A stretch of DNA of 34,764 bases from Prolixibacteraceae bacterium (GCA_016930735.1 JAFGGF010000261.1:1-34764); one strand, 5' to 3'. Numbered from the stretch's first letter, positions 1 through 21,079 are shown. The notes: generated by a model not told the origin, from the sequence alone. Program-made: numbers and translations.

Positions 1-787
1 CTTTTTCAACCACTTCTGTTTCCTTGAAACCTGAGCTAATCAGGCTTAAACAAACAAATGCAGTTAAAGGAATTGCTTCGAGGAATCCGCCACTCATCGG
101 CAACATTCGTTGTAAAATTTTCATTGCCCTGGGAATGGAAAACTTCCGGACAACCCGCCAGAAAATACCTGATTTTTTCTTTTTAAAAATAACGATTCCC
201 ACAGCTACAAGCGCCGGAATTGCATAACTTACAACACTCAGGTTAAGCAGTTTGAAAAACCTCCTGGGAAGCAACGACAATTCAAACGGAAGCTGCGGGA
301 TATGTTTAAATGCATTTTCCCCGGGGACATTACACAATCCGCACATAGCCAGGATGGGGACTGAAAAAGTATAATCTTTCTGATAATGATTCAGAATGTA
401 TTCTGCAACTTTAGGGGAGTTGGTTTCAATTCCCTTGCTCAATAAATAGGCAGAAATCCTGCTGTTGGTTTTTTTTGCTCTTATATTGTTTTCAGTGTAC
501 AAATTTAAAGCTGCATAAACCAACAGGCTTGTACTGACATTTCCGGGGCTTTCAGGAGTATCACCAAAACTTCCGTCAGCGTTAATATTTTTGTACAACC
601 AGGCTATTCCACTATGAATTTCCTTTAAGTTTTTTTCCAGGCCATCAAAATGCAAAGCAACAACAGCAACGGCAACTCCAAGAGCACTGGATGAAAGTTT
701 TCCTTCCCAAAAGCCTAAAGAATTTCTTCGCGCAATCAGCTCTAAAGCCACCTCATTAAAACGCTGTTGTATTTGTTCTTTTTTCAT
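1..787 (-). CDS. Squalene-hopene cyclase-like terpene cyclase, N-terminal part (continues past window start)
   Basis: Hand translation from ATG at 787-785 stays open to the edge: MKKEQIQQRFNEVALELIARRNSLGFWEGKLSSSALGVAVAVVALHF...NADGSFGDTPESPGNVSTSLLVYAAL...LPFELSLLPRRFFKLLNLSVVSYAIPALVAVGI. The QW-like G.W..L and DGSFG segments and the LP.EL..LP..F segment are cyclase-like. Not in the ORF track because it is partial. Start overlaps upstream stop (ATGA). Confidence 0.75.
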   Translation of the reverse strand, partial: MKKEQIQQRFNEVALELIARRNSLGFWEGKLSSSALGVAVAVVALHFDGLEKNLKEIHSGIAWLYKNINADGSFGDTPESPGNVSTSLLVYAALNLYTENNIRAKKTNSRISAYLLSKGIETNSPKVAEYILNHYQKDYTFSVPILAMCGLCNVPGENAFKHIPQLPFELSLLPRRFFKLLNLSVVSYAIPALVAVGIVIFKKKKSGIFWRVVRKFSIPRAMKILQRMLPMSGGFLEAIPLTAFVCLSLISSGFKETEVVEK

Positions 788-1617
788 GCCAATACTCCCA
801 ATGCCAGTAATCCGTAAAATGTATATTCAAGGTCGCGTATCTGGTCTCCATCGCCCGATAAAAAAGCCCCGTCACTGTAATTCTGCTGAACCAGATCCAG
901 ACAGGTTGGAGCAACCAATCGTAAATCCTGTCCTGAAATTTTCATAGCAAATAAAGCTACAGCCGTAGAAAGCAAATCAGATGCTTTGTTTTGATGATAC
1001 ATTTTAAATCCTTTTTTTTCATCAAAATAAGCAAGTAATTTTTGATTTACCTGACTGGTTTTTTTGCCTGAAAAATTTTGTACAACAAGCAAAGCAGCAG
1101 TCATACTGCAGGGAGAATTTGTATCAGGTTTATAAAACAATAAAAAGAAACGTATCAGTAATTTTACGAATAAAGTCCGTTTGTAAAAATTATCGAATGT
1201 GATCAGGAATAAAAATATCCGGTATGGAAGGTTCGTTTTCTGTTTTTTCCGAAAAAATAAATTGATCAAGGCAACCAACGATGGTTTTTTGCTTTTATCC
1301 GATACAATTGATTCCATAAGCATCAGGGAATACAATTCAGGTGTATTCAAGTTCTCCTTTTCAGCTTCGGAAATAAAAGTTTTAATTTTATCCAGATTTT
1401 CATTTAAACCAACAGCTTTTGCCAGCAATGTCCCGAAAAGCGAATAATAAAAATCCGGTTTCCCTCCGCGGTCTGTAAATCCACTGTTTTCATTTTGCCG
1501 GGAATTAATAAAAACCTTTACTTCATCCTGACTCTTTTCTTCAAGCAATTCAAATCCCTTTTTCAAAAAAAGAATGAAAAAATCAACAACTGATGTATTG
1601 ATTGATAAACCGGTCAC
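784..1617 (-). CDS. Prenyltransferase/squalene-cyclase-like alpha/alpha-barrel protein (single domain)
   Basis: 277-aa ORF. Contains NSGFTDRGGKPDFYYSLFGTLLAKAVG and a C-terminal DGAFLSGDGDQIRDLEYTFYGLLALGVL resembling prenyltransferase/cyclase repeats. Sits in an operon with a cyclase-like gene. Confidence 0.6.
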   Translation of the reverse strand: MTGLSINTSVVDFFILFLKKGFELLEEKSQDEVKVFINSRQNENSGFTDRGGKPDFYYSLFGTLLAKAVGLNENLDKIKTFISEAEKENLNTPELYSLMLMESIVSDKSKKPSLVALINLFFRKKQKTNLPYRIFLFLITFDNFYKRTLFVKLLIRFFLLFYKPDTNSPCSMTAALLVVQNFSGKKTSQVNQKLLAYFDEKKGFKMYHQNKASDLLSTAVALFAMKISGQDLRLVAPTCLDLVQQNYSDGAFLSGDGDQIRDLEYTFYGLLALGVLA

Positions 1618-1621
1618 GGGA

Positions 1622-3193
1622 TCATTTTTTAAAGACCTTGCCCATTACAGCATACAAACTCAAACGTAATTTCAAATTCAGAAGCTGATCCAATTCCTGG
1701 TAGCATTTCTGAAGAAATTGATCAAGCCATGTTTCAGCCTTTTTTTCGATTTCGAATTTTTCAAATTCCTTAGCGAGGCCATTCAATTTATATCCGTGAA
1801 TCAAATCCTTTAAAGAAATTCCACTTCCTTTCAATTCCAGATTTAACAAAACCAGAAGAAAAGGAAAGTCGAAAGCGTTTTTGAGGTCGTTTTCTTCCCT
1901 GTATTCGTTTAAATCGTCCCTGATCTGATATGCTATGCCAAAAAATTCAGAAAATGCCTTTAAATGCGTTAAATCAATTTCAGGGGCATTTCCACAAATA
2001 GCACCAGTTAACAATGCAACTTTTACAGCTTCACCGGTTTTCTGGCTGAAAATTCCGGTAATATCATCTACTGACAGGTTAAATATATTTTTATAAAGGC
2101 GGATATCATCGCCCTGCCCTTCCGAAAGCCTGGTATGTGATGCAGCAACTACTTTTAAACATTTTGAAATTATTTCAGCATTGACTGAATTATTTGCCAG
2201 CATCATGTAGCCCTTTCCAATCAGGTAATCACCCACATTTATTGCCACAGGAATACCTTCTGTACGGTGGATGGTAGGTTGCCCGTAACGTTCATCCTCA
2301 TCATCTTCAATATCGTCGTGTATCAATGAAGCTTTATGAAAACATTCAATAATTACAGACAAGGATTCCTGAACTTTTTCTGAAAAATCCTTAGTATATG
2401 ACTGATATGCCAATACTGATAATAACGGCCGCATCCGGTGTCCTCCCATTCCCATCATTTTTGCCGCCAGTTTTGCAGTAACACTTTCTGAATTAAAATG
2501 TTTTTGCAGGTTTTCCCCGGTAAAATAATTCAGCACATCGTTTTTGATCAGTGAAACTGAAATTGGCCGGATTTTTTCATTTTCAGCAAACAACTCCATT
2601 TCACTGAACAACCAGTCGTAATCAGCAGTCGTTTCCACACATCCTTCATATAAAAGGGGGATTCCGATTGCCGGGACTGCAGCCTGAGTAACCGGTTCAA
2701 ACGATTTTTGAAGTACTGACATACAGCTAACCCCGATCACCGCATCAATTGAACCTTCTTCAACCAAACCAATTGCAACTGTAGTCCCCTCAGCAACCAG
2801 AGTCGAATAGCCCAACTCTTCAGCCCGGGATAAAATACTGTCAATTTTACAACTTCCGCAACCTGCGCAAATCAATCCAAGTTCATCGATTTCAGCTTTA
2901 CAGCTTAACTGACTTTTCAGGCATTGTGGCAACAACAGTAACCTGCGGTTAAAAGGTACTGAAGCAACGGTTTCGCGCCATATTTCATTCCCTGCCAGGA
3001 CAATAGTAAAATCAAGGAATTCAGAATTTAAATTCAGTTTTGAAAGAATTTTTTCAGCGTGAATTTCAAGTGTTTCCAGGTTCGATGGTGGCAGGACTTT
3101 ATTTTCTGCAAAGTGCAAACGAACTGCTTTCCGCAAATCGTTGCGGACTTTCCTGTTTTCAGGAACCTTTAATAAGCGTTTTGTTTCAAACAT
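1622..3193 (-). CDS. Fusion protein: N-terminal DUF116-like domain + C-terminal polyprenyl diphosphate synthase
   Basis: 523 aa in one frame. N-term LLLLPQCLKSQLSCKAEIDELGLICAGCGSCKIDS...VIGVSCMSVLQ...AVPAIGIPLLYEGCVETTADYDW (DUF116-like). C-term GHRMRPLL, LIHDDIEDDEDERYGQPTIHR (first Asp-rich motif), AYQIRDDLNEY (second motif). Confidence 0.85.
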   Translation of the reverse strand: MFETKRLLKVPENRKVRNDLRKAVRLHFAENKVLPPSNLETLEIHAEKILSKLNLNSEFLDFTIVLAGNEIWRETVASVPFNRRLLLLPQCLKSQLSCKAEIDELGLICAGCGSCKIDSILSRAEELGYSTLVAEGTTVAIGLVEEGSIDAVIGVSCMSVLQKSFEPVTQAAVPAIGIPLLYEGCVETTADYDWLFSEMELFAENEKIRPISVSLIKNDVLNYFTGENLQKHFNSESVTAKLAAKMMGMGGHRMRPLLSVLAYQSYTKDFSEKVQESLSVIIECFHKASLIHDDIEDDEDERYGQPTIHRTEGIPVAINVGDYLIGKGYMMLANNSVNAEIISKCLKVVAASHTRLSEGQGDDIRLYKNIFNLSVDDITGIFSQKTGEAVKVALLTGAICGNAPEIDLTHLKAFSEFFGIAYQIRDDLNEYREENDLKNAFDFPFLLVLLNLELKGSGISLKDLIHGYKLNGLAKEFEKFEIEKKAETWLDQFLQKCYQELDQLLNLKLRLSLYAVMGKVFKK

Positions 3194-3196
3194 ATT

Positions 3197-4372
3197 TTAT
3201 CCGTATGCTCCCATTCCGAAAAATGCCTTTTTTTTGGCAAACCGGTACCAGCGGTTTGTTTCAGGAATTGCCGGGATCGATGAGTGGCTCGGAACCTGTG
3301 GCATTGCTTTTAATCGTTTTATCTCGTTTCCCCTGCCGGAAGTATCGGTTGCCAGATGGCTTTTTGCAAATTCTGCCAGCCAGACCGGGTCTTCCATTAT
3401 AATACAACCCTTCGTTTTTTCAGGAATCTGTTGTTTAAGTTCATTCAAAAATATTGAATTCTGATAGATTTCTGAAAGAGGTTTCTCTCCAACTTTTTCA
3501 TTTGCAAACTGAATAACAGGGCAAGGCTCTATGTACCCGGAAGCATTGATATGGTGACTTAATCCGGTTACTGCCGGGCAAAGAGGATTTCCATCTTCGT
3601 CCCAGTAGGCATCAATAATTACAATATCAAATTTTGAACGGGCTTCTACCATAAATTTCCTCAATTTCAAAATTTCGTCACTGCTCAATGCAAGTTCAAC
3701 AGTTGGATTCTCACCCACCGGACGGTAAATATAATACCACAAATAAACCACGCCCTTATCGATTAACCCATTGATAAATTCAGGTGATAAAGCCAGGTCG
3801 ATATTCGATTTGCAGACGCTCATGGCAACACCGGTAATAAGCCCGGCACCCACAGCAGTTTCGATAGCTTCGTTTGTTTTCCTGAAAACACCACTCCCAC
3901 CCCTACGGGTGTCGGCAATATTTTCATCACCTTCAAAACTTATCAGGGGTGTCACATTACCCAACTTTCTGAGTTTTTCAGCAATTTCAGGATTGAGTAA
4001 AGTCCCGTTTGTAAAGAGCTGAAAATAGCAGTCCGGATGTTTTCTGAAAACGTCAATCAGTGGTTTATACATTAAGGGCTCACCTCCCAGAATACCAAAA
4101 AAATATGATCCTTTTGCTTTGGTTTCCTTTATGATCTGATCAACCTGTTCAGGCGACAGCCGATTCTTTTTCTTTTTTCCAATCACCCAACATCCCTGGC
4201 AATTGAGGTTGCAGTCGTCGGTAACTGAAATGAAATGAAAAGCCGGGAAAAACTCACCTTTTTTCAACCTTTTCTGAAAACGGCTGAAACCAATGGCCCC
4301 CTTAATACCCATGTTGTATACAAATTTATACAGGCACTTTTTATCGGTATTTTTCAGAATCCTGCGGATCAT
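3197..4372 (-). CDS. Radical SAM protein with SPASM-like cysteine-rich C-terminal region
   Basis: CNLNCQGCW (CxxxCxxC), GGEPLMY (GGE motif), later CPAVTGLSHHINASGYIEPCPVIQFA...KGCI cysteines. Confidence 0.9.
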   Translation of the reverse strand: MIRRILKNTDKKCLYKFVYNMGIKGAIGFSRFQKRLKKGEFFPAFHFISVTDDCNLNCQGCWVIGKKKKNRLSPEQVDQIIKETKAKGSYFFGILGGEPLMYKPLIDVFRKHPDCYFQLFTNGTLLNPEIAEKLRKLGNVTPLISFEGDENIADTRRGGSGVFRKTNEAIETAVGAGLITGVAMSVCKSNIDLALSPEFINGLIDKGVVYLWYYIYRPVGENPTVELALSSDEILKLRKFMVEARSKFDIVIIDAYWDEDGNPLCPAVTGLSHHINASGYIEPCPVIQFANEKVGEKPLSEIYQNSIFLNELKQQIPEKTKGCIIMEDPVWLAEFAKSHLATDTSGRGNEIKRLKAMPQVPSHSSIPAIPETNRWYRFAKKKAFFGMGAYG

Positions 4373-5137
4373 TTATTCCTTTTTGAATTGCATTTTTTTG
4401 AATTCTGCCAAAGCTTTTTTTCTTTCTTCTTCAGCCAGTTGAACCACTCCCTGGCGAAAAATACTCTTCCTGTTCCGGTTGCGTTCATTCAATTGATTAA
4501 ACAAACTCTGTTCTTCTATGTTTATTTTGATCTCGCCCGGCTCAGCACCGGCAAGGACCGATTTTTCTGCCAACCTTGGAAATATAATTGCATTTGCAGG
4601 GCAGGTGCGTCCGCAGGCAGGGCAAAAATTTTTGCACGACAACGGATTTACTACTTCCAGGCTACCTTTACTAAACTTATAAACTCCAAAAAGGCAGAAT
4701 TTTGAGCATTTCCCGCAATAAGTGCATCGTGTATGATCAATCACAGGAAACCAGGCAGGCACATCCAGACTATTTTTAAAAATTTGATAATCAGCCATTC
4801 CTTCAGGAAGGGTTAATTCGTTTTTTAGCATCTTTTCTATTTGTTCAGGATTCAACTCCTTGAAACTGATAAAATTATAATTACCAATATCGATTCCGCC
4901 CTGAATCAGCATATGCTTAACAGCCCGGGGATAGCAGGCAATAATTGTTTTTTTGTGATATTTTTCTGAAATCGATTTTAGAACCTCTTTTTCGTTGACC
5001 GAATAAGCACATAAATCATGTAATTCAATTACATCGGTATTGAATTTTTTAATAAGAGAAGTTAACTGCCCATGCAGACTTTCTGAAACGTTTTCCCCTC
5101 CGCAACGACAATATATCAAACACTGTTTAACTGCCAT
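4373..5137 (-). CDS. 4Fe-4S ferredoxin with HdrA-like N-terminal segment
   Basis: MAVKQCLIYCRCGGENV...IIACYPRAVKHML resembles the CxCGgNi/ACSPR segments of HdrA. Two cluster motifs follow: CTYCGKCSKFC and CKNFCPACGRTCPANAI. ORF track start is 5209; the internal ATG at 5137 looks more plausible. Confidence 0.75.
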   Translation of the reverse strand: MAVKQCLIYCRCGGENVSESLHGQLTSLIKKFNTDVIELHDLCAYSVNEKEVLKSISEKYHKKTIIACYPRAVKHMLIQGGIDIGNYNFISFKELNPEQIEKMLKNELTLPEGMADYQIFKNSLDVPAWFPVIDHTRCTYCGKCSKFCLFGVYKFSKGSLEVVNPLSCKNFCPACGRTCPANAIIFPRLAEKSVLAGAEPGEIKINIEEQSLFNQLNERNRNRKSIFRQGVVQLAEEERKKALAEFKKMQFKKE

Positions 5138-5221
5138 AAAATTATTTGGTTGGCTGCCGAAAATAATTAAAATTTGAATAAGGTTAAAATCAATTCGCCA
5201 GATTCGCATTTCATTAACATT

Positions 5222-15273: not shown

Positions 15274-16074
15274 ATGAAACTTCTATTTCCCTTTATTCTT
15301 TTTTTAACTGGTATTCTGACAAATGCACAGGAAAATATTTCTGTAAGAAATGATTTTAAACCGTTTTTTGACGAATATGAAGTCGATGGGTGTTTCCTTT
15401 TGTTTGATGTGCAAAAATCAGATTACCTAGCTTATAATTATGAAAGGTGCAAAGAATCATTTCTTCCGGCTTCCACATTTAAAATCCTGAATTCATTGAT
15501 TGGACTGGAAACGGGAATTATTCCTGATGAAAATTATATAATACCATGGGACAGTATTACAAGGCAGGTACCAGCCTGGAACCGTGATCACACGATGGCT
15601 TCTGCATTCAGAAATTCTGTGGTACCCTGGTATCAGGAACTGGCAAGGAGGATCGGTGTTGAAAATATGAAAAAATGGGTTGAAAAAGCCGGATATGGCA
15701 TCATGGATATTTCAGAAGAAAACATTGACACTTTCTGGCTTTACGGAAATTCAAGGATCACACCCCTGCAACAAATGGATTTTCTTCAAAGATTTGTAAG
15801 TAATAAATTGCCTTTTTCAGAACACAGTACGGAAACTGTACGGAAAATATTCATTATCGAAAAAAATGATGATTATACTTTCAGGGGTAAGACAGGCTGG
15901 GCAACCATGGATAATAAAAATATCGGCTGGTTTGCAGGTTATCTCGAAAAAGGGGGTTCAACCTGGATTTATGTACTGAATGTTGAAAGCGGAAATGAAG
16001 ATACAACTCAATTTTCAGCAAGCAGAGAAGGAATTACCCGAAAAATATTAAAAAAACTCAATCTGATTCATTAA
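15274..16074 (+). CDS. Class D (OXA-type) beta-lactamase
   Basis: Signal peptide; PASTFK (STxK), NSVVPWYQELARRIG (SxV), WLYGNSRITPLQQMDFLQ (YGN), RGKTGWA (KTG), GWFAGYLE. Confidence 0.92.
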   Translation: MKLLFPFILFLTGILTNAQENISVRNDFKPFFDEYEVDGCFLLFDVQKSDYLAYNYERCKESFLPASTFKILNSLIGLETGIIPDENYIIPWDSITRQVPAWNRDHTMASAFRNSVVPWYQELARRIGVENMKKWVEKAGYGIMDISEENIDTFWLYGNSRITPLQQMDFLQRFVSNKLPFSEHSTETVRKIFIIEKNDDYTFRGKTGWATMDNKNIGWFAGYLEKGGSTWIYVLNVESGNEDTTQFSASREGITRKILKKLNLIH

Positions 16075-18486: not shown

Positions 18487-19155
18487 TTAATAAATAAAAA
18501 CTTTCGAACCTAATTGCATCGTGTCGTAAACATATTTAAGGTCAGCATCATTAAGCCTTACACAGCCATGAGTTACCGGCAGTCCAAGGAATCGCTGATA
18601 CAAAGTGCCATGAATAAGATAACCATTGCCAATATCAAGGGCATAATCGCCTAAAACACCGTATTCATACCTTGACGCATGTGTAGGAGGAGGTATTGGA
18701 AGCCCCTCTTCAATAAATGCCCAATCAGGTTTTCTCCAAACCGGATCAACAATTTTGTTTTTTACGGTAAACACTCCCTTGGGTGTCTCAAAAAGATATT
18801 GTTTATCTCCATCTGCTTCCAAATGAATGTAGCTTCCCGTAGAGCAAATCCCCTCATAATCCAGAACCTTATTTTTATAAACCTGAAATGAGTTTTCTGC
18901 GGTGTTAATTACCAAATAAACTTTTCCGGGGTTTAACCTGCCCAGTTTTTTCTGTAACGATTCAACTTCCTTTTCAAGTTTTAAAGCTGTAAGTTGCCCT
19001 TTATTTTCAGAGATGGCAAATTTTAATCCTTTTGAATATTCCTTTTCCCGGAATTCAGGAATAAATTTCAGAAATCCAAACCAGATAATAATGAACCCGA
19101 CAAATACAGATATAAGGATTTTAAAGTAAACCAGTATTTTACCTGAAGGAATCAT
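18487..19155 (-). CDS. L,D-transpeptidase (YkuD family)
   Basis: HGTLYQRFLGLPVTHGCVRLNDADLKYVYD (HGxx...SHGChR-type catalytic motif). ORF track uses TTG at 19164; ATG at 19155 is an alternative. Confidence 0.9.
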   Translation of the reverse strand: MIPSGKILVYFKILISVFVGFIIIWFGFLKFIPEFREKEYSKGLKFAISENKGQLTALKLEKEVESLQKKLGRLNPGKVYLVINTAENSFQVYKNKVLDYEGICSTGSYIHLEADGDKQYLFETPKGVFTVKNKIVDPVWRKPDWAFIEEGLPIPPPTHASRYEYGVLGDYALDIGNGYLIHGTLYQRFLGLPVTHGCVRLNDADLKYVYDTMQLGSKVFIY

Positions 19156-19160
19156 ATAAT

Positions 19161-20273
19161 TCAATTGAAAAATTTATCGTAGGGAATTTCACTGCCTATA
19201 ATTATTACCGGAGTATTGACCCCAACCATTCCAAATAATTTATCCATTTCAGTGTTTTCCAAAGCAATACAACCATCTGTCCAGTTGCTCCCTTTACCGC
19301 CTAATCCATGAATTTCAATTAATCCGCCAATTTTTGAATTCTTTGAAATTGCACCGCTTTTGACCAGTTTGTCGAACCTTTTTTTATCCTCTGAATTTGG
19401 ATAATTTATCAGAAGTGATTTATAAAATTTAGTCTTGTTACCGCTTTTTTTCTCAACAATATGATAAATACCTTCGGGTGTTGCTTTATCACCCATCCTC
19501 TTTTTATCTCCAAACCAGTTCCTTCCAAATTCGGCAGAAAAACTTCCTATTGTTTTATTACTTTTTAATACCAAACAGGTTGATTCAAGTTTATTAATGA
19601 GAATTACGGTCTGTCCATTCCTGGAAAGTTTCCGGGCATAACTTGCATCCTCCACCCACTTCGGATAATCGGCATAAAAATTCTTTAATAATTCCCTGGC
19701 AGAATCAGAGGCTCTGTTTATTAGTTTTTCTGCCTCATCAGTACGGATTTTTGTTTCCAAAATCTGCCCCCTCTTAAATAATTCCTCTGCCTCGTGATAT
19801 TTCATTCTTGCCTGGCTGAATAAATCAAAGTCGTGTTTGTTTAGTGGCAGGTGAATAAAATATTTTTCGAAATATGTAATTTTATTTTTTAATGAAGTGA
19901 ACTGGCTTTTCAGTTTTCCGTTATAGTTTTTCTTTTCATTAACTGCTTTGGCAAAGGCTTTATTACTAAGTTCAAATGATTTGCCTGCAAGTTCCTTCAC
20001 CTTTTCATAATCGCGAATGAGCAAAAACCTTTCATTCTGGTACTTCCATTCACTCATTGCCTGATTATACATTTTATCGGCTTCACTGAAAATTTGTTCA
20101 GCATATTTATCGGCCTGTTCTTTTTTTGCCTGGGCCAGTGCATTTACGGCATTTTTAACCTCAGCTTTAGGGGGTGTATTACTCAAATATTTATACAGCG
20201 AATAAATTGAAACTGCTAAAAAAACTATTATGAAAGAAAAAAGAATAATCCTTTTTGCCCTGTTTTTTTTCAT
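19161..20273 (-). CDS. L,D-transpeptidase with N-terminal coiled-coil region
   Basis: TM MKKNRAKRIILFSFIIVFLAVSIYSLY; YAEQIFSEADKMYNQAMSEW coiled coil; IEIHGLGGKGSNWTDGCIALENTEMD. Confidence 0.85.
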   Translation of the reverse strand: MKKNRAKRIILFSFIIVFLAVSIYSLYKYLSNTPPKAEVKNAVNALAQAKKEQADKYAEQIFSEADKMYNQAMSEWKYQNERFLLIRDYEKVKELAGKSFELSNKAFAKAVNEKKNYNGKLKSQFTSLKNKITYFEKYFIHLPLNKHDFDLFSQARMKYHEAEELFKRGQILETKIRTDEAEKLINRASDSARELLKNFYADYPKWVEDASYARKLSRNGQTVILINKLESTCLVLKSNKTIGSFSAEFGRNWFGDKKRMGDKATPEGIYHIVEKKSGNKTKFYKSLLINYPNSEDKKRFDKLVKSGAISKNSKIGGLIEIHGLGGKGSNWTDGCIALENTEMDKLFGMVGVNTPVIIIGSEIPYDKFFN

Positions 20274-20325: not shown

Positions 20326-20925
20326 CTATCTTTTTTTCAAATTGTATTTTTCAATAACAGATTTTAGTTCCGCATTAATAGAATTTGATTTTTCAAGTGC
20401 TGCTTTGGCTTTTGACTGTGCTGTCAGAAGATTTCCGTCGTTGAGGAGTTGAGAAATTTCTCCAACAGTGGTATTAATGACTGAAAGCTCGCTCTTTATT
20501 GCATCAATAGCTGCTTTACCTTCTTTTCCTTTTGGAGCTTTTTCTACCAATCCGGCATTTTCATCAGCCAGGGCATTCAATTGTTCCAATTCAGAATTTA
20601 CTTCTTCTGTTATGGCAATTTTTTTAGCTTCAGCACTTTTAACCAACTCATTTGCCTGAGATTCAACGGCTGCCAGTTTAGCTTTTACACCCGAAAAACT
20701 CTTGAATAATTTGCCCTTTCCTGCTTCTATTTCAGTATTAATAGCATTCATCGAATCAAGAAGAACTGCATATTCCGATTCCAGATAAACATTGGCTTCG
20801 GCCTGTTCAGCATTTACAATAGCAGCATTTGCTGCATCAACTTCAGCCTGAGGAACTTTTGCGCAACCACCTAATATAAACGCTGCTGATATTACAACAG
20901 CAAAAATTAACATACTCTTTTTCAT
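20326..20925 (-). CDS. Alpha-helical coiled-coil lipoprotein (DUF4398-like)
   Basis: MKKSMLIFAVVISAAFILGGCAKVPQAEVDAANAAIVNAEQAEA...; start moved to 20925 because the lipoprotein signal begins there. Confidence 0.75.
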   Translation of the reverse strand: MKKSMLIFAVVISAAFILGGCAKVPQAEVDAANAAIVNAEQAEANVYLESEYAVLLDSMNAINTEIEAGKGKLFKSFSGVKAKLAAVESQANELVKSAEAKKIAITEEVNSELEQLNALADENAGLVEKAPKGKEGKAAIDAIKSELSVINTTVGEISQLLNDGNLLTAQSKAKAALEKSNSINAELKSVIEKYNLKKR

Positions 20926-21079
20926 AACTTTTATAAATCTTAAGTTTAAATTTCTAATATGAATTTCATGTTTATAAAATTCATTCAATTATTTTGACGA
21001 AAGGAATGCAGGAAGTAACATAATTGTATTAAAAAATGTAAATTTGATTTGTTTCTTTATTTTCAGGAAGCCCGTTTTT

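Follow-up and report, generated by a model that had tools for sequence, protein, structure and literature searches.

The well-known polycyclic triterpenoids of bacteria arise via squalene, and such ring lipids are used as biomarkers and act as membrane stabilizers. Other class II cyclases, such as the drimenyl diphosphate synthase SsDMS, copalyl diphosphate synthase (CPS), Rv3377c and Tpn2, act on prenyl diphosphates and not on squalene; to our knowledge, none of this type is linked to a module of radical S-adenosylmethionine (SAM) and Fe-S proteins. The locus analysed here places a cyclase homologue next to such a module. It lies on a 34,764-nt stretch of DNA, termed the window, which is one entire contig (G000:C263) of a metagenome-assembled genome (MAG) of Prolixibacteraceae (4.1 Mb, 81% complete). 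Five adjacent open reading frames (ORFs), all on the minus strand and in the order A-B-C-D-E, were called: an HdrA-like ferredoxin (orfA), a radical SAM protein (orfB), a fusion of DUF116 with a polyprenyl synthase (orfC), a small toroid-like protein (orfD) and the cyclase homologue (orfE). The cassette probably specifies the synthesis of a cyclic isoprenoid lipid by a route that does not depend on squalene and includes redox/radical tailoring.

An electron-transfer role has been predicted for DUF116, and the fusion of this domain with a polyprenyl synthetase in Psta_0175 of Pirellula staleyi was cited in support (PMC5898192). Psta_0175 has the same domain fusion as C; in the portion of that paper that was available it is mentioned in one sentence, without a cluster, cyclase or pathway. 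Compared with Hdr-like sulfur oxidation with a lipoate-binding protein, as described in PMC6067878, the cassette likewise has an HdrA-like protein, and planctomycete cassettes are accompanied by a GcvH-like lipoyl protein; however, the cassettes show no HdrB/HdrC set and isoprenoid enzymes are central to them; this is only a resemblance. The original prediction, made from the window sequence alone, had recognized no described hopanoid, sterol or carotenoid cluster in these genes, and no match to one was obtained in databases or in the open-access literature. A description of the cassette was also absent from the open-access literature (DUF116 and the gene combination); subscription papers were mostly outside the search, so one may exist.

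The cyclase and its distance from squalene-hopene cyclase

The cyclase step is the best-supported part of the proposed pathway. The piece of orfE in the window matched the Pfam family SQHop_cyclase_N (4.1e-12). Completing the gene and looking for a DxDD motif had been suggested as a check in the original prediction; the missing 3' half was found at the start of another contig of the same assembly (G000:C59, positions 2-1006), and its frame carries PDCDDT. Judged by relatives, ∼1 codon is absent between the two pieces. Full-length relatives (599-606 aa, loci L032-L036) carry PDGDDT, which aligns with PDVDDT of squalene-hopene cyclase (SHC) in the PDB alignment. DxDD was present in 44 of 48 E homologues. 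The remaining four, three short loci and the piece in the window, are fragments, so that all 44 full-length sequences have the motif; nearly all also keep the Asp/His pair of LPFDxSxxDxxxH. An AlphaFold2 model of the E protein of Tangfeifania, built from an 8-row alignment, had a mean pLDDT of 85.6 and a pTM of 0.87. When this model was compared with the PDB by Foldseek, SHC ranked first (E ∼1e-17, TM 0.74), followed by drimenyl diphosphate synthase (TM 0.74-0.79 by target), oxidosqualene cyclase, CPS and Rv3377c. Two alpha-barrel domains and a catalytic DxDD, which broadly define the class II terpene cyclases, were found both in full-length relatives and in the two pieces of the window's own gene. 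Fold and residues support E as a catalytically equipped class II terpene-cyclase homologue, with cyclization itself predicted.

With the SHC of Alicyclobacillus (PDB 1sqc/2sqc), E shares the two-domain alpha/alpha fold, DxDD with its Asp/His partner and QW-type repeats, but it has 19% identity in the structural alignment, forms a clade of its own, has a linked prenyl synthase and occurs in some carriers that lack squalene synthase. The full-length Tangfeifania protein scored 88.7 bits on the SHC equivalog TIGR01507, under the cut-off of 431.1 bits, and was under the cut-off of every other named cyclase model. Canonical SHC and the cassette are found together in many planctomycete genomes, where PF13243 scores are 326-473 bits for SHC and ∼50-118 for E. 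A maximum-likelihood tree placed E and true SHC on opposite sides of a branch with a support of 100/100. In the tree of E, the Prolixibacteraceae sequences are nested among planctomycete and unclassified ones, with moderate support for the deepest forks, a pattern consistent with horizontal transfer. The next-best structural matches, SsDMS and the bacterial class II diterpene cyclases (CPS, Rv3377c, Tpn2; TM ∼0.63-0.79 by target), are shorter than E (∼600 aa), which also differs from them in keeping SHC-like repeats.

No protein matching PF00494 (squalene/phytoene synthase) was found in 23 of the 91 Prolixibacteraceae genomes that hold the cassette. Fourteen of these are at least 98% complete, and they include two, G036 and G071, that are each one contig and 100% complete. 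The family was likewise not found in the three genomes behind loci L037-L039, nor in the window's own genome at its 81% completeness. Since 23 cassette genomes are without a squalene/phytoene synthase, squalene would not be an obligatory substrate of the cassette. The other 68 genomes do contain a PF00494 protein, which may be of the carotenoid type.

The DUF116-prenyl synthase fusion and its partners

The DUF116-fused, altered prenyl synthase is the strangest part of the cassette. Pfam matches of orfC were 4.5e-34 for DUF116 and 1.9e-36 for polyprenyl_synt. Like the trans-polyprenyl diphosphate synthases (PF00348), C has a DDxxD motif (52 of 52 copies), a second Asp-rich motif (Gln and Asp in 51 of the 52, with a gap in the remaining one) and an upstream stretch, HKASL, that resembles long-chain synthases. 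It differs from them in the DUF116 fusion and in the RR pair that follows the first Asp motif, which is RY in all 52 copies. In characterized synthases, the second Arg of this pair holds the diphosphate of isopentenyl diphosphate (IPP). Ordinary prenyl synthase paralogues from five of the same genomes have RR in 11 of 11 cases, whereas the five fusions of those genomes have RY. Because the RR-to-RY change is universal in C, plain chain elongation may not be the reaction of its synthase domain. Two ordinary prenyl synthases are already present in the window's own genome, and the fusion would therefore be a specialized third.

The radical SAM assignment of orfB follows from a match to Radical_SAM (PF04055, 1.9e-19) and the motif CNLNCQGC (CxxxCxxC, 4190..4213), which place it in the superfamily; SPASM-like Cys residues lie towards the C-terminus (aa 265, 284 and 323). 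The original prediction had cited HpnH as an example of radical SAM chemistry. The score of B on the HpnH model was 44.5 bits, under the curated cut-off of 225, and this similarity is no greater than that to many other radical SAM families; the nearest solved structure is SkfB (E 4e-14). A role of the HpnH type was thus rejected, and a viperin-like anti-phage role was set aside, the match to the viperin model being 39 bits over the radical SAM core. At two loci (L132:6048-7583 and L038:4556-6106) the position of orfB is taken by a different radical SAM protein, TIGR04013-like and B12-binding in type.

For orfA, Pfam gave a 4Fe-4S dicluster domain under curated cut-offs, and the best NCBIfam matches were HdrA. 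Two motifs resemble the HdrA N-terminus (CRCGG, 5096..5110; ACYPR, 4925..4939) and two are of the ferredoxin type (CTYCGKCSKFC, 4694..4726; CKNFCPACGRTC, 4601..4636), and among 41 homologues the ferredoxin Cys residues are ≥92% conserved. On the model of full-length HdrA, which includes the FAD domain, A scored 33.7 bits against a cut-off of 1300; at 254 aa it consists of the ferredoxin part and the N-terminal-like Cys motifs only.

The product of orfD gave weak Prenyltrans and SQHop matches in Pfam. It has the conserved motifs DLLST and D-x-E-Y-T-x-Y-G and lacks DxDD. The structural matches of a model of the window protein (pLDDT 88.4) were weak, with no E-value <0.001, and were to the RabGGTase beta subunit, SHC and drimenyl diphosphate synthase. 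D is therefore described as toroid-like. Its identification as a protein prenyltransferase was rejected, since the fold matches are weak.

Distribution and readings of function

C was found in 91 of 141 genomes of the family, about two thirds. Outside the family, 8 of 197 genomes sampled from the order had it, and none of 397 others drawn evenly from the phylum. It reappeared in 65 of 297 sampled Planctomycetota (about a fifth), in one Sumerlaeota MAG and in one unclassified MAG. Named relatives with C within the family are Tangfeifania, Mariniphaga and Sunxiuqinia, the carrier strains being T. diversioriginum DSM 27063, M. sediminis SY21 and S. elliptica CGMCC 1.9156. The A-B-C-D-E order is kept in nearly all family loci examined, and the same genes occur, rearranged, in Planctomycetota. 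C and E are present together in 89 of the 92 family genomes that hold either (Fisher p ∼2e-34, ignoring kinship), and the phylogenies of B and C are broadly congruent with the E tree. The neighbourhood, for which the original prediction had considered a restriction to close relatives, is thus conserved across two distant phyla.

Several further genes were seen near the cassette. In 20 planctomycete loci, a GcvH-like protein was encoded nearby in 14 (L127-L133, L135-L140, L144), with the lipoyl Lys kept where read, a CobW-type GTPase in 10 and a cysteine desulfurase in 5. The window's own genome has two GCV_H-type domains within longer frames of 569 and 242 aa on another contig (G000:C164; L205, L207). 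PQQ/BamB-type beta-propeller genes stand beside the cassette at six loci (L082, L083, L084, L086, L037, L038) and are absent from the window; an ArsP-type permease is also encoded at L082, and a CobW GTPase at L083. In a single-contig relative (G041, L095:6764-9715), frame changes interrupt both orfD and orfE; either decay of this copy or sequencing errors may be the cause.

For the proposed pathway, we infer the substrate, chain length, order of steps and product, as well as what A, B, D and the DUF116 domain do. The synthase domain of C would bind a long allylic prenyl diphosphate and ionize it via DDxxD. Because the Arg for the IPP diphosphate is always Tyr, C may then attach the chain to a non-IPP acceptor or couple it irregularly, with the Cys-rich DUF116 taking part. 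E would protonate a double bond with DxDD, and rings would form as in SHC or drimenyl diphosphate synthase, with D possibly as its toroid-like partner or as another subunit that binds prenyl groups. Finally B, supplied by the HdrA-like ferredoxin A, would modify or reduce the ring or chain. Of the undescribed isoprenoid pathway put forward in the original prediction, the conserved operon and the prenyl synthase fusion beside a DxDD cyclase homologue have stood; the comparison with HpnH needs amending, and plain elongation may not apply. None of the three outcomes that it had named as refuting (a neighbourhood confined to close relatives, a cyclase without a catalytic Asp motif, a match to a characterized pathway) was obtained, the last within the databases and open-access papers searched. 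A more tentative proposal is that the fusion is a new isoprenoid-coupling enzyme, with a non-IPP acceptor and possibly Fe-S-driven reductive coupling. Its product would pass to a distinct class II cyclase, and the outcome would be a hitherto unseen family of polycyclic membrane lipids, formed independently of squalene, in Bacteroidota and Planctomycetota. A widespread cassette that combines a redox/radical module with a DxDD cyclase and an altered prenyl synthase of its own would represent an additional pathway and probably an additional lipid class, and would bear on enzyme discovery, membrane biology and the use of lipid biomarkers.

Several observations weigh against this pathway. The RY change could mean that the prenyl synthase domain is inactive or regulatory, and it is gene linkage alone that ties B to an isoprenoid. 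The absence of PF00494 is compatible with imported squalene or an unrecognized squalene-forming enzyme. Some planctomycetes have B, D or E away from C, and one genome of the same family (G095, locus L083) has C and A without B, D and E; the set may therefore be divisible.

The main alternative, which we regard as unlikely, is a prenylated redox cofactor. C would prenylate a small aromatic or thiol acceptor and E would cyclize part of the chain, as in meroterpenoids, while A, DUF116 and B would build or reduce the head group, to yield an electron carrier of the membrane and not a structural lipid. Half of the gene set consists of Fe-S/redox proteins, genes for CobW GTPase, cysteine desulfurase and the GcvH-like lipoyl proteins accompany the cassette in Planctomycetota, and the loss of the IPP-side Arg in C fits a non-IPP acceptor. 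However, the cassette contains no conserved aromatic prenyltransferase, methyltransferase or head-group enzyme, and E is a two-domain cyclase of SHC length.

We give little credence to a divergent hopanoid route, in which E would cyclize squalene and the other genes would tailor hopanoids. Although SHC is the closest structure to E and most cassette genomes have a PF00494 protein, this squalene-fed reading was rejected on the model score far under the SHC cut-off, the position of E outside the SHC clade and the 23 cassette genomes without PF00494; in addition, B is not HpnH and a true SHC is already present in many planctomycetes. Hardly any more room is left for a protein prenylation or non-terpenoid toroid role, with D and E binding prenyl groups without cyclizing them and the chain attached to a protein: the faint structural likeness of D to RabGGTase beta has to be set against its E-values above 0.001, the strict retention of DxDD and its Asp/His partner in E, and the lack of a conserved peptide or alpha-subunit gene in the cassette. 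A chance grouping of five unrelated genes, or a cassette in decay, as the frame breaks in G041 and the missing members in G095 might suggest, is barely credible given the order fixed over many genera and two phyla, the pairing of C with E and the retained catalytic residues, and a chance neighbourhood was rejected on this conservation. The squalene-independent lipid pathway is thus the reading that we prefer.

Gene layout and other genes of the window

The original prediction had described a five-gene minus-strand operon, and ORF calling returned every value given for its spacing: 0 nt between A and B, 3 nt between B and C, 4 nt between C and D, and a shared ATGA (4 nt) at D/E. Its gene labels were backed by the Pfam and NCBIfam domain searches, and its start for orfA, an internal ATG of the longer ORF, fits the relatives better (Table 1).

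Table 1. Positions of the cassette genes and domains in the window
Feature	Position	Strand	Details and basis
orfA, HdrA N-terminal-like with two 4Fe-4S ferredoxin motifs	4373..5137	-	Alternative start 5209 (ORF 4373..5209); ORF calls, domain searches
orfB, radical SAM	3197..4372	-	Domain searches, motifs
orfC, DUF116-polyprenyl synthase fusion, 523 aa	1622..3193	-	ORF calls, domain searches
DUF116 domain of orfC	2603..3052	-	CAGCGSC (CxxCxxC) 2849..2869; domain search, motif
Polyprenyl synthase domain of orfC	1892..2476	-	DDIED 2303..2317; RYG (not RRG) 2282..2290; second Asp motif 1904..1930
orfD, small alpha/alpha toroid-like, 277 aa, GTG start	784..1617	-	Domain search, alignment, structure model
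orfE, class II (squalene-hopene-like) terpene cyclase homologue, N-terminal 262 aa	2..787	-	Open at contig end, remainder on G000:C59:2-1006; domain search

The flanking genes (peptidase, MFS, aldolase-like, nicotinate and purine genes, and toxin-antitoxin-like pairs) differ among relatives and were not counted in the cassette. Elsewhere in the window, a transpeptidase-family protein (15274..16074, plus strand; PF00905, 3.6e-39) has the motifs PASTFK, YGN and KTGW and resembles beta-lactamases of class D (OXA-type). Two adjacent proteins at 18487..20273 (minus strand), judged by translation, are L,D-transpeptidase-like (YkuD-type) and lie beside a small lipoprotein-like ORF (20326..20988). At the other contig end (31985..34455, plus strand), the gene for an FAD-dependent oxidoreductase overlaps that for a multi-cluster 4Fe-4S membrane protein.

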